In this document: in pieces, positions 4,892 through 9,370 of the stretch
How positions within the stretch are numbered: position 1 is the stretch's first letter
Layout: each line of letters starts with the position of its first letter
DNA from: Candidatus Aenigmatarchaeota archaeon
Lineage (GTDB): Archaea > Aenigmatarchaeota > Aenigmatarchaeia > DAOWOJ01
Assembly: GCA_030642125.1 (NCBI GenBank)
Contig: DAOWOJ010000006.1
Location: forward strand, 1 to 11,110
Direction: 5' to 3'
DNA length: 11,110 nucleotides
Notes under the pieces: generated by a model
Database searches by the model: none
What the model saw: the letters and a program-made list of their open reading frames with translations, nothing else
Told to the model about the DNA's origin: nothing
Position numbers and translations under genes: made by a program

Positions 4892-5371
4892 ATGAGTGAT
4901 GTAGATGTTGATATGTTAGAAAGGAAAGCGTTTGACTTAAGTGAATCAGGAAACCATACAGGAGCGATAAACTGTTATCGTAGTGCATTAAAGAAAAGGC
5001 CGAAACACAATACTGCATTGAACAACGAAGGTGTTTCTCTTGAAAAATTAGGAAGATATACAGAAGCGATGGAATGTTTTTGTAAGGCAGTGGATATAGA
5101 TCCGTATGATGCTTTTGCATGGTACAACCAAGGTCTTTCTCTTTTCTACTCAAAAAATTATAAACGTGCGGAAGAATGTTTTGGTAAGGCAGTTACTATA
5201 GTTCCGGATGATGTTGATTCATTGTATATTAGAGGTTGTTCTCTTGATAAATTGGGAGAATCTGAAGAAGCAATGAAATGTTATGATAAAGCATTGGAGA
5301 TAGATTCTTCTAAAGTGTTGCATTCCTGGTGGTCCAATTGCAATAGTCACTATCATATATATAATTTCTAG
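4892..5371 (+). CDS. TPR-repeat protein, 3' end replaced by an antisense kae1 fragment
   Basis: Predicted soluble tetratricopeptide-repeat protein, 159 residues; such repeats mediate protein-protein contacts, partner unknown. Four 34-residue units are readable: about 9-40, 41-74 (NTALNNEGVSLEKLGRYTEA), 75-108 (AFAWYNQGLSLFYSKNYKRA) and 109-142 (VDSLYIRGCSLDKLGESEEA...DKALEID). The last 17 or so residues (LHSWWSNCNSHYHIYNF) do not look like a repeat. The DNA from 5320 onward is homologous to the kae1 gene read antisense, so the original 3' part was lost or displaced. The joint has the shared bases GCATT, which occur both in TPR-type sequence (GCTGCATTGAA, as in the intact paralogue) and in kae1. 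Start ATG 4892 is preceded by GTGATG. It may be an expressed truncated protein or a pseudogene. The paralogue at 6448 is intact. Confidence 0.7.
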   Translation: MSDVDVDMLERKAFDLSESGNHTGAINCYRSALKKRPKHNTALNNEGVSLEKLGRYTEAMECFCKAVDIDPYDAFAWYNQGLSLFYSKNYKRAEECFGKAVTIVPDDVDSLYIRGCSLDKLGESEEAMKCYDKALEIDSSKVLHSWWSNCNSHYHIYNF

Positions 5372-5424
5372 TTTGATTTTAGCTATTTTTAATGAATTAT
5401 TTAAAACATTTTTTGCTACATTTA
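5320..5424 (-). pseudogene. Duplicated fragment of kae1 (partial, antisense to the TPR gene end)
   Basis: This 105-nt stretch aligns with 8436-8534 inside kae1 in the same orientation. Most bases match, with a 3-nt insertion (GGT, giving IGPPGM where kae1 has IGPGMP) and a few other changes. Translated on the minus strand it reads NVAKNVLNNSLKIAKIKLE..., against NVAKNVLNNSLEIAEIKLE in kae1. Similarity starts abruptly at GCATTCCTGGT and stops at CATTTA. It lies far from any kae1 start, active site or stop and cannot be functional as Kae1. It supplies the stop codon of the TPR frame on the plus strand. Confidence 0.85.
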
Positions 5425-7022: not shown

Positions 7023-7568
7023 TTATATAGTCTCAGGACCATCTGTTATTTCGCCATTTTCATCATATACTGTTATAGTTGATTGACTAATTCCAAGTCT
7101 TGAAATATTAATTTTATCGGTTCCGGTATATCCTACACACATATTTATTCTTGAAATTTCATTAGAGACTTCATCATCTGTTATCATTTCTTCATATTTG
7201 CCATCTCGTGAAGTATATATACCATAAAGAATTTGACCAATATTATTATTAGCATTTTCTGATGATTTTCTACCAACAATAACACAATCTCCTTCATTAA
7301 GATTTGTACTATGTGGGTTTTGTGATGATCCTAAATACAATTTGATATTTTCATTTTCACGTTTTATTTCAACTGAGTCTTTTCCGTCTGCATCTCTAAC
7401 TACAACTTTATATCCATTTTCTTGTAAACAAGTTCTAGCTGTTTTCTGCTGATCTCCATAACGACGATTATTATATAACATTCTTTCAGATGTTTCATCA
7501 TCATGATTATAAATTGCATTCTGAAACACTGTATTTATAGAATCAGTAAGTCCGTCTTTTATTTCCAT
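7023..7568 (-). CDS. Unrecognised ~180-residue family, copy 1 (possible divergent FHA-like C-terminal half)
   Basis: I do not recognise this protein. It is 181 residues, hydrophilic, with no signal peptide or membrane segment. It is a clear paralogue of the gene at 8758-9294: both begin MEIKD, both have a hydrophobic V/I-I-G-R strand near residue 100 (VIVGRKSSEN), and both end with nearly the same 17 residues (TVYDENGEITDGPETI here). The middle is very divergent. The order GR (99-100), VSNEIS (134-139), INISRLG (153-159) recalls an FHA domain, but the canonical Ser-Arg-x-x-His and Asn-Gly are not present, so phosphopeptide binding is not supported. The start is fixed by the 90-nt block shared with the paralogue. 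TATTTAAA on the minus strand, 21-28 nt upstream of the ATG (7589-7596), suggests a leaderless mRNA. The 3' flank is T-rich (minus strand), a likely terminator. Confidence 0.75.
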   Translation of the reverse strand: MEIKDGLTDSINTVFQNAIYNHDDETSERMLYNNRRYGDQQKTARTCLQENGYKVVVRDADGKDSVEIKRENENIKLYLGSSQNPHSTNLNEGDCVIVGRKSSENANNNIGQILYGIYTSRDGKYEEMITDDEVSNEISRINMCVGYTGTDKINISRLGISQSTITVYDENGEITDGPETI

Positions 7569-7644
7569 TATATTAATTATATTAAAGATTTAAATACTTT
7601 TCTGTTATTTATTACTAATAAGTTAGAAAATGTGATAAAATAAA
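7555..7644. repeat. 90-nt block identical to 9281-9370: start codon plus two-way promoter module C
   Basis: All 90 bases match 9281-9370. On the minus strand the block holds a purine-rich stretch (AGAAAAG, BRE-like), then TATTTAAA, then the first five codons of the family gene. On the plus strand the same sequence has TTTAAATACTTTT...ATTACTAATAAGT...GTGATAAAATA, matching the promoter and leader of the plus-strand TPR genes but with ATA where the TPR gene has its ATG. The near-palindromic TATTTAAATA core could serve both directions. Plus-strand sequence after the block (to 7701) codes for nothing recognisable. Confidence 0.85.
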
Positions 7645-7701: not shown

Positions 7702-8704
7702 CTACAACCAACTGACATCAACATCTTCTACCCTGAAATTTTGTATTATCTTAGATTTTGATATATCAATTGGTTTTTGTGATTTATACATTAACATGCA
7801 TGTCCATGCTATATTTATGCCATTATCCCCACAAAATTCTTTTGGAACAACAAAAAAATTAGATTTTCTATCTTCACACATTATATTTAACATTTCTGTG
7901 AGTCTTTGATTTGATGCAACTCCTCCAACTAATAATACTTCATTCTTTTTTGTGTGAGCAATTGCTCTTTCCACAACTTCTGTTAGCATTGCAAAACATG
8001 TTTCTTGTAAAGAATAACATATATTTTCTAATTTTTCACCAGATTTAAATTTCTTTTTTGCTTCTGTAAGAATTCCTGTAAAACTCATATCCATTCCTTT
8101 TACAGAATATGGTAACGAAGTCCATTTTCCATTTTTAGCTAATTTTTCTATGATTGGTCCTCCTGGTTGCGGTAATTCACAGAATCTAGCAAAAGAGTCA
8201 AGAACATTGCCTATTGGTTGATCTAAAACCTCTCCTAAAATTCTGTATTTTTTTTCAATAAAACTTATGATTTGTGTATTTCCTCCACTAGTGTATAATA
8301 TTATAGGATCTTCTGATTTAGTCATTAATTTTCCAATTTCTATATGAGCGATAGCATGATTACATCCAAATAATGGTTTGTTTTCTTTTAAACTTAATAT
8401 TCTTGCTACTATTGCTCCAACTTTCAAGCATGGTGGCATTCCTGGTCCAATTGCAAATCCTATCATATCTATATCTTCTAGTTTGATTTCAGCTATTTCT
8501 AATGAGTTATTTAAAACATTTTTTGCTACATTTATATGATGATCTACAGCTTCTCTTGGAATTATACCATTTTTCGATTTATATACATCTTTTACATTAG
8601 ATAAAATTTTTCCATGTTCATCTATTATACCGATACCAAAAGTATTTCTGCTAATTAAGTGCAGTACTTTCGATACCTAAAGATATAATTTTATTATCTT
8701 TCAT
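7702..8704 (-). CDS. kae1: Kae1/TsaD, tRNA N6-threonylcarbamoyladenosine synthase subunit, split by a 13-nt BHB intron
   Basis: Catalytic subunit of the KEOPS complex, which transfers threonylcarbamoyl to A37 of ANN-decoding tRNAs. Spliced coding sequence is complement(7702..8645 and 8659..8704): 990 nt, 329 residues, normal for a Kae1 without the Bud32 fusion. Exon 1 (46 nt) encodes MKDNKIISLGIESTA plus the first base of codon 16. Unspliced, the frame meets TAG two codons later (GIESTALN, stop). Removing 13 nt gives His16 and GIESTAHTFGIGIID, the conserved N-terminal ATP-site motif. Other marks: GPGMPPCLKVG (about 82-92), metal ligands His112 and His116 in NHAIAHIEIG, GGVASNQRL, and Asp289 in CGDNGINIAW. 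The ATG at 8466 is internal (residue 76) and would drop the ATP-site motif. ATG 8704 has no Shine-Dalgarno. A duplicated fragment lies at 5320-5424. If the intron is not spliced, this is a frameshifted essential gene, which is unlikely. Confidence 0.88.
8646..8658 (-). other. 13-nt bulge-helix-bulge intron in kae1 mRNA
   Basis: On the minus strand the intron is TTAATTAGCAGAA. Central 4-bp helix: exon CTGC (8664-8661) with intron GCAG (8651-8648). Bulge 1 is ACT (8660-8658), cut AC|T; bulge 2 is AAA (8647-8645), cut AA|A. The intron loop is TAATTA (8657-8652). The outer exon-exon stem pairs AAAGTA (8670-8665) with TACTTT (8644-8639), all Watson-Crick, and extends outward to 13 pairs including G-U (GGTATCGAAAGTA with TACTTTTGGTATC). 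The cut sites dictated by the BHB rule coincide exactly with the 13 nt that the protein family alignment requires to be absent. The intron is phase 1, within the codon for His16. Confidence 0.85.
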
Positions 8705-8757: not shown

Positions 8758-9294
8758 TTATATAGTCTCAGGACCATCTATTATTTCACCAGTTTCATCG
8801 TATGCTGTGATAGTTACTGGATTCTTTCCGAAGTTTGAAATTTTAATTTCACGGCCATGTGTTCCATATTTCGCTTCAATATAACATTGTACTATTGAAA
8901 TGTCTCTAGGAACCTTTGTGTTTGTAATAGTTTTTTCATATTCATCTTCTGGTGAAATTCTTGTGCAATAAAGACAATCATTTGTCGAGTCTCTACCAAT
9001 AATATGACCTTCTATTTTTTCCCCAATAACGGTAAAATATGCTTCTTCTCCTGATCTTAAACCCATTACACTATTTCCACTTCCATGTCCTACAGAAAAT
9101 AAATTTTCGCCACGTGTACTGTCAACTATAAGTTTACATCCTTCTCCTAAACTAGCTTCAATCGTTCTTGAGTCACCTTTGTGTATATTGTAGTTTCTCT
9201 TTATACTTTCATGTGAACCTACATCAAGAGCATTAAATGTACTTTCAAGTACTTTTCTGTAATGCTTAGTAGTAGATAAATCTTTTATTTCCAT
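8758..9294 (-). CDS. Unrecognised ~180-residue family, copy 2 (possible divergent FHA-like C-terminal half)
   Basis: A 178-residue paralogue of the gene at 7023-7568; not recognised. It begins MEIKDLSTTK and ends TAYDETGEIIDGPETI, close to copy 1 at both ends, with a divergent middle. The C-terminal half again has a hydrophobic strand and Gly-Arg (HIIGRDSTND, GR at 100-101), VPRDIS (128-133), then IKISNFG (150-156), an FHA-like order lacking the usual His and Asn-Gly. Gly/Ser-rich SVGHGSGNSVMG (67-78) may be a loop. No membrane segment or signal. The promoter and start lie in the 90-nt block identical to copy 1, with TATTTAAA 21-28 nt before the ATG, so a leaderless transcript is likely. kae1 follows 53 bp downstream on the same strand and may partly depend on this transcript. 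Confidence 0.75.
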   Translation of the reverse strand: MEIKDLSTTKHYRKVLESTFNALDVGSHESIKRNYNIHKGDSRTIEASLGEGCKLIVDSTRGENLFSVGHGSGNSVMGLRSGEEAYFTVIGEKIEGHIIGRDSTNDCLYCTRISPEDEYEKTITNTKVPRDISIVQCYIEAKYGTHGREIKISNFGKNPVTITAYDETGEIIDGPETI

Positions 9295-9370
9295 TATATT
9301 AATTATATTAAAGATTTAAATACTTTTCTGTTATTTATTACTAATAAGTTAGAAAATGTGATAAAATAAA
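9281..9370. repeat. 90-nt block identical to 7555-7644: start codon plus two-way promoter module D
   Basis: No mismatch to 7555-7644 in 90 bases, while the coding bodies just inside the block have diverged strongly. The identity ends abruptly on both sides (after the MEIKD codons and after GATAAAATAAA). TTTAAATA is at 9315-9322. The plus-strand side resembles the TPR promoters; sequence beyond 9370 to the end of uS10 at 9420 shows no gene. Confidence 0.85.

Follow-up and report, generated by a model that had tools for sequence, protein, structure and literature searches.

A predicted 13-nt BHB intron in the kae1 gene of an Aenigmatarchaeota genome, with intron-like inserts in kae1 and rtcB of related genomes

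Described BHB introns and the interrupted kae1 gene

In the open-licence literature, BHB introns in archaeal coding sequences have so far been known from one gene in one phylum. The cbf5 introns of Desulfurococcales and Sulfolobales are 16-44 bp long and disrupt the codon of a catalytic residue, and both spliced cDNA and losses in some lineages have been reported (PMC2738675). Besides its own case, HVO_1309, the crenarchaeotal cbf5 intron was the only one reported up to the date of PMC7714728. The HVO_1309 intron, a BHB intron of 46 nt in a 5' UTR of Haloferax, was found via circular RNA (PMC7714728). For Halobacterium, a single circular RNA was described from the gene of a hypothetical protein (PMC12558985), and the available parts of PMC12397907, PMC12558985, and PMC12918454 hold no such coding-sequence intron beyond references to cbf5. 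Putative inserts of 12 bp are mentioned for protein genes of an archaeal virus, where splicing is undemonstrated and the inserts are possibly not spliced (PMC2738675). Archaeal tRNA introns span 11-129 nt (PMC4090602) or 11-175 nt (PMC2738675).

The locus described here resembles cbf5 in that a short, patchily distributed intron lies in the coding part of a gene for an RNA-modification enzyme, with the cut placed between bulge bases two and three (PMC2738675). It differs in gene, phylum, and insert length (13-30 nt) and in being known from DNA alone, and it falls outside the cbf5 type, which is defined by location in cbf5, as the gene encodes Kae1. With the HVO_1309 intron, which is processed by EndA, it shares a BHB in an mRNA, whereas HVO_1309 carries its intron in the untranslated leader and no codon is rebuilt there (PMC7714728). 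Very short length and location in protein genes are shared with the viral 12-bp inserts (PMC2738675). Minimal tRNA introns at position 37/38, such as that of the tRNA-Tyr of the same genome, likewise have one bulge base, a short loop, a 4-nt helix strand, and AA|A, but are flanked by the anticodon stem instead of a 13-bp exon-exon stem in a coding message.

An earlier note on this DNA had called BHB introns in protein genes rare, with cbf5 as the known case, and had stated that none this short is known in an mRNA. The first statement stands for coding sequences, where cbf5 is the sole case found in print, and has to be widened by the one 5' UTR case (PMC7714728). The second holds against the 16-44 bp of cbf5 and fails to allow for the putative 12-bp viral inserts (PMC2738675). 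Its remark that no intron is known in kae1 agrees with the open-licence literature, where none of the matches listed described an intron in kae1 or rtcB, judged mostly by title and the start of the abstract, with subscription journals and preprints lying outside this search. With multi-genome support, kae1 would be the second such gene, and rtcB probably the third, in another archaeal phylum.

Kae1 is the catalytic subunit of KEOPS and makes t6A37 in tRNA. In the window (the whole stretch of DNA that was analysed, 11,110 nucleotides), its gene yields a 990-nt frame (329 aa and stop) once positions 8658-8646 are removed, and the spliced protein scored 448 bits against TIGR03722 arch_KAE1 (cut-off 375) in a profile search. 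The features of the gene are as follows.

7702..8704, minus strand: kae1 (Kae1/TsaD, tRNA t6A synthase) with the predicted intron; profile match and frame
8659..8704, minus strand: exon 1, codons 1-15 and the first base of His16; sequence and frame
8646..8658, minus strand: predicted 13-nt BHB intron, TTAATTAGCAGAA; sequence, fold, and frame, with the site also interrupted in genomes G012, G026, G063, and G087
7702..8645, minus strand: exon 2, from the second base of His16 through the stop; frame
8651..8653, minus strand: in-frame TAG ending the unspliced reading at codon 18, with two codons open past the junction; sequence

Unspliced, frame 0 from the ATG at 8704 reads MKDNKIISLGIESTALN and ends at the TAG at 8653-8651. 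The break caused by the 13 nt falls within GIESTAHTFG, and the rest of Kae1 follows in another frame that is open for 314 codons. Excision of 8658-8646 leaves GIESTAHTFGIG intact, and among 17 neighbouring 13-nt deletion registers this one alone gave STAHTFG. The earlier note had described kae1 as out of frame after codon 15, had derived the same 13 nt from the cuts AC|T and AA|A together with His16 and the 990-nt frame, and had argued that structure and protein predict the same boundaries. Each of its elements was recovered at its position, the frame was reproduced when recomputed, and the rule-based cuts coincide with the exon borders.

The gene could instead be inactivated, a 13-nt insertion having broken kae1, which would now be decaying while another copy functions. 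Such decay has a precedent nearby in a 108-nt kae1 piece at 5317-5424 on the minus strand, which is 87% identical to 8433-8534 and ends a TPR reading frame, and the genome (575 kb in 117 contigs) is only 57% complete. However, exon 2 has stayed open over its 314 codons, with identities to relatives of up to 58% in one search and 61% in another, the assembled 57% of the genome yielded no further full-length kae1, and four other genomes share the split codon and the BHB geometry, which makes inactivation highly improbable. The gene is also flanked by two paralogous small proteins (MEIKD...) at 8758-9294 and 7023-7568 on the minus strand. The two share a start region of 90 identical bp (9281-9370 and 7555-7644) and resemble each other at their ends, and a search of NCBIfam matched neither.

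Predicted fold and the splicing genes of the genome

The minimum-energy fold of the minus strand (-17.6 kcal/mol) has a 13-bp outer stem, in which three pairs are G-U, the helix CTGC/GCAG, and two 3-nt bulges. Its parts are listed in the order of the transcript.

8665..8677, minus strand: outer helix, 5' strand, GGTATCGAAAGTA; RNA folding
8661..8664, minus strand: central helix, 5' strand, CTGC, exonic; folding and covariation
8658..8660, minus strand: 5' bulge ACT, predicted cut AC|T; folding and frame
8652..8657, minus strand: loop TAATTA, without inner helix; folding
8648..8651, minus strand: central helix, 3' strand, GCAG, intronic; folding and covariation
8645..8647, minus strand: 3' bulge AAA, predicted cut AA|A; folding and frame
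8632..8644, minus strand: outer helix, 3' strand, TACTTTTGGTATC; RNA folding

The z-score of the fold was -4.1 over 61 nt and -6.3 over 48 nt. When the exons were recoded synonymously with the codon usage of the window, a run of 13 bp arose in 497 of 300,000 recodings; among 5000 random 13-mers drawn from the window, 32 completed the central helix in register. The 4-bp central helix with 3-nt bulges on opposite strands is present and is 100% paired in the five interrupted sequences described below. Since an outer helix is present without an inner one, the window element takes the relaxed hBH form (outer helix, bulge, central helix, loop); its 6-nt loop leaves no inner helix for the full hBHBh' motif. 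It had been called a complete BHB, which is right for the helix, the bulges, the TAATTA loop, and the 13-bp outer stem and goes too far for the inner helix. In G063, the intron does form an inner stem, but unpaired bases set it apart. As a 13-nt intron without inner helix, the kae1 element would be a near-minimal substrate.

A strict BHB scan of the same genome (introns of 9-60 nt, outer helix of at least 6 bp) covered 61 of the 117 contigs or 314,181 bases and is blind to introns without outer helix, the form seen in rtcB. It returned 1522 motifs, 70 of which passed the coding test, and the longest outer helix among them is that of kae1. For the 45 highest-ranked of these 70, the translations across the joined exons were read, and all candidates but kae1 were put down by eye to chance or neighbouring genes.

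The best explanation is that kae1 very probably carries a BHB intron removed by the tRNA splicing route, as modelled from sequence and fold. In the folded pre-mRNA, two exon segments would make up the outer helix of 13 bp, and CTGC of the exon would pair with GCAG of the intron, leaving the two 3-nt bulges. EndA would cut AC|U and AA|A, and RtcB would join the exons to GCA C|AU, giving an intact ESTAHTFG motif. We infer cleavage, ligation, the use of the spliced message, and any regulatory role.

The products of BHB splicing are sealed by the RNA ligase RtcB. Genes for a splicing endonuclease and for RtcB both occur in the genome of the window, the former as one EndA (contig C21; 97 bits against TIGR00324, cut-off 59.6) and the latter as two partial genes. 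An alignment of 33 EndA sequences of the class from 31 loci, drawn up without the longer EndA forms, has the catalytic Tyr in 33, His in 31, and Lys in none. The third catalytic position, Lys in the M. jannaschii chain, is Ala in most of these sequences (L097, L105-L134), and the residues in the window's genome are Y, H, and A. Activity of the class EndA is an assumption because the catalytic Lys is absent from all 33.

Five tRNA genes were found in this genome at E < 0.001, three of them with inserts in the anticodon loop. The tRNA-Tyr insert of 11 nt (CTGT/ATAG, AG|A, AA|A) has the same minimal layout as the kae1 intron, while the inserts of tRNA-CAT (13 nt) and tRNA-Thr(GGT) (14 nt; L101, 1359-1466, minus strand) form three of four central pairs. 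The 37/38 placement is our own; ARAGORN agreed on the lengths of the Tyr and Thr inserts, though in other registers, and missed the tRNA-CAT gene, which Rfam detected. The variable region of the tRNA-Thr(GGT) gene is also longer by about 21 nt, and five of the ten tRNA-like matches were weak.

The same His codon in related genomes

The spliced Kae1 was searched against 156 genomes of the class, which are the same set as for the phylum; G000 denotes the genome of the window, other G numbers the other genomes of the class, and f a family. Matches were found in 128 genomes and the motif region was examined in 123; the matches in the other five, G049, G071, G107, G122, and G131, were short or truncated. 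Kae1 was uninterrupted in 113 genomes and interrupted in five, four had only a TsaD of bacterial type, and one was truncated (G090). The interruption is patchy: of 118 genomes with a visible Kae1 motif, it occurs in five, namely G000, G012, G026, G063, and G087, from four families (f1, f11 twice, f19, and f21). The four others fall in three families other than that of the window, for which no same-family relative was present among the related genomes returned, and a search of viral contigs for a relative gave none. Among named kae1 genes, the closest belong to four Candidatus Aenigmatarchaeota loci with 54-58% identity, and all four are uninterrupted. Among 65 named kae1 loci, 59 had the motif in frame, L078 and L085 showed it by eye with one letter changed, and L082, L087, L094, and L095 did not cover it in this check. 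In family f8 (G014, G068, G069, and G072; L012, L246-L248), the sole match was a TsaD judged by its sequence to be of bacterial type, e.g., MKILAVDTSCDETSAS, with 32-35% identity to the Kae1 of the window.

The inserts measure 13 nt in G000, 16 in G012, 14 in G026, 16 in G087, and 30 in G063. Those of 13, 14, 16, and 16 nt shift the frame by +1, +2, +1, and +1, and that of 30 nt is in frame with two stops. All five split one His codon (C|AT), and excision gives GIE[SG]TAHT[FL]G in each genome. The 3' bulge is AA|A throughout, and the central helix is CTGC/GCAG except in G012, where CCGC/GCGG represents a compensatory change. In the alignment of the five rows, 80 of 85 pair cells were formed (94.1%), and four pairs were changed on both sides, so that the structure is kept by compensatory change within these five related sequences. 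Pairing fell to 29-45% when the partner strand was slid by one to three columns. Two of 500 shuffles matched the observed pairing percentage, a count that gives no probability since the five rows are related. The comparison of kae1 in related genomes that had been proposed as a check thus revealed the same site interrupted in four more genomes, with compensatory changes in the stem.

These comparisons bear on two translational readings of the locus. In programmed ribosomal frameshifting, a +1 shift in the overlap would keep about four extra residues; the frames in the window do overlap, and a +1 shift before the TAG would enter the long frame. However, the inserts would need shifts of +1, +2, +1, and +1 and stop read-through at one site, the extra residues would break up a motif that 113 of 123 genomes keep uninterrupted, and neither the stem nor the covariation would be accounted for, so frameshifting is highly unlikely. 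Translational bypassing, in which the ribosome hops over the insert, is known for short non-coding gaps in phage T4 gene 60 and some yeast mitochondria. Here the His codon is split C|AT and a whole-codon hop gives no His, and a GCA-CAY landing site was not found after the insert in the stretch read, which leaves bypassing vanishingly improbable.

An assembly or sequencing artefact has to be considered for a metagenome-assembled genome, and the earlier note had named a correction of the reads as a way in which the insert could disappear. Five genomes with differing inserts at the same codon, four of them in addition to that of the window, speak against such an error, as does a rule-based structure whose two helices have chances of 0.2% and 0.6%. 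Database proteins point the same way. Among the best 120 of 5454 matches, nine Kae1 proteins have a misread junction at their start, including the G026 reading MFGHRKYCTLNSRNTFGVG (P0092) and the G012 reading LVSRVPHNIFSGNTLG (P0021); the seven others (P0030, P0034, P0054, P0090, P0100, P0105, and P0120) were seen at the protein level. P0021 recurs on three contigs of at most 18,614 bases, G012's own contig having 71,913, and P0092 is listed from two contigs, one apparently that of G026. An artefact is therefore extremely unlikely. P0001, a 207-residue piece identical to the Kae1 of the window, does not include the intron region and is hence uninformative.

A BHB intron is the sole known reading that accounts for one split codon, five inserts of 13-30 nt, one geometry, compensatory changes, and the same restored motif together. 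As gene-calling programs misread genes of this kind, genomes like these may harbour further intron-split genes that have gone unnoticed.

In the outer register of the exon stem, 13 of 14 pairs form in G000, G012, and G087 and 12 in G026 and G063, and the runs from the central helix are 13 (G000), 12 (G012), 3 (G026), 9 (G087), and 9 (G063). The run in G026 is only 3 because of a single mismatch at the fourth pair of the outer stem, and the mismatches in G012, G087, and G063 lie at the far end. One of the 113 intronless genomes reaches 12 pairs and none reaches 13. Their longest run is 7, in two f17 genomes, and all others have at most 3. These two genes, L257 (G093) and L296 (G094), possibly retain a relic of intron loss in their 7-bp run.

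All five intron genes have the silent codon pair ATC plus AGT or GGT, which is present in none of 114 distinct intronless 30-mers, and G062, an intronless congener of G026 with an 83% identical Kae1, uses ATT and TCA. The needs of pairing explain this only in part since T at the third position of Ile would pair too, and the rest of the sharing may stem from common descent or co-transfer of the flanks. A quick tree was built from 63 Kae1 proteins after removal of the motif columns; 20 of its 60 inner branches were unresolved, and the G063 row was partial. The intron needs five changes on this tree, which would fit several gains at a single site, spread by transfer, or an ancient intron that was lost many times. 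The intron is probably old or has repeatedly moved within Aenigmatarchaeota.

Intron-like inserts in rtcB

An rtcB match was present in 136 of the 156 genomes of the class. Close inspection covered 25 of these, 20 chosen for broken or odd matches together with G000, G012, G026, G063, and G087, and led to 21 intron models of 21-34 nt at three conserved positions in 18 genomes. The models were required to restore the protein motif and then ranked by BHB geometry.

rtcB insert loci: L333 (G012), L335 (G026), L337 (G063), and L369-L381, L383, and L386 (15 further genomes)
Site A, PDGH|GYGFP: 12 genomes, G128, G024, G018, G011, G110, G083, G105, G040, G047, G107, G084, and G082
Site B, the next Tyr codon: five genomes, G026, G063, G144, G147, and G030
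Site C, GIG|DINCG: four genomes, G012, G105, G040, and G011

Three genomes carry two rtcB inserts apiece, and G012, G026, and G063 have predicted introns in both kae1 and rtcB. Sequences DINCG and GYGFP are taken by us to lie near the active site of RtcB. In contrast to the kae1 intron, most rtcB inserts form an inner helix, and their outer helix is short or missing. Their flush inner helices sum to 129 bp vs a mean of 15.2 and a maximum of 36 in shuffled inserts, and these shuffles are the main independent check because the models were picked by motif and structure rule. The models are clearest for G012, with TAGG/CCTA and an inner stem of 10 bp, and for G026, with AAGG/CCTT and an inner stem of 9 bp. 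Folded stretches gave z-scores of -4.6 for G026 and -1.3 for G012; that of G040 (-1.6) began inside the intron and is no fair test. G063 is a weak case with two of four central pairs. The central helices of site A have three of four pairs except for G024 with four, no significant inner run was found in G024, G011 (site C), and G030, and that of G147 is marginal.

The rtcB gene of G087 is uninterrupted. No insert was found in the stretches examined of G062, G086, G097 (without its start), and G151 or in the partial copies of G000, and the rtcB of G061 is broken elsewhere, with no intron model.

The intron-like inserts seen in the rtcB of 18 genomes make a wider set of mRNA introns probable, and Aenigmatarchaeota probably splice some mRNAs with the tRNA-splicing machinery, to judge from their genomes. 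The rtcB introns, if true, would make the ligase depend on itself, as RtcB would be required before its own message could be translated. Tentatively, lineage-wide minimal BHB introns in conserved active-site codons of Kae1 and RtcB could form a self-dependent switch that ties expression of the enzymes to splicing capacity, with the kae1 intron spreading together with its flanks, a mode of spread that the shared silent codons of the intron-bearing exons suggest. The choice of conserved active-site codons bears on the origin and persistence of pre-mRNA introns.

Two further irregularities were seen among the rtcB genes. In G011 (L372), the frame changes near residues 26-54, besides the two modelled introns, and no model fits this change. 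Frames of 827-1018 aa (e.g., G020:C2 and G114:C29) probably contain inteins, going by frame size alone.
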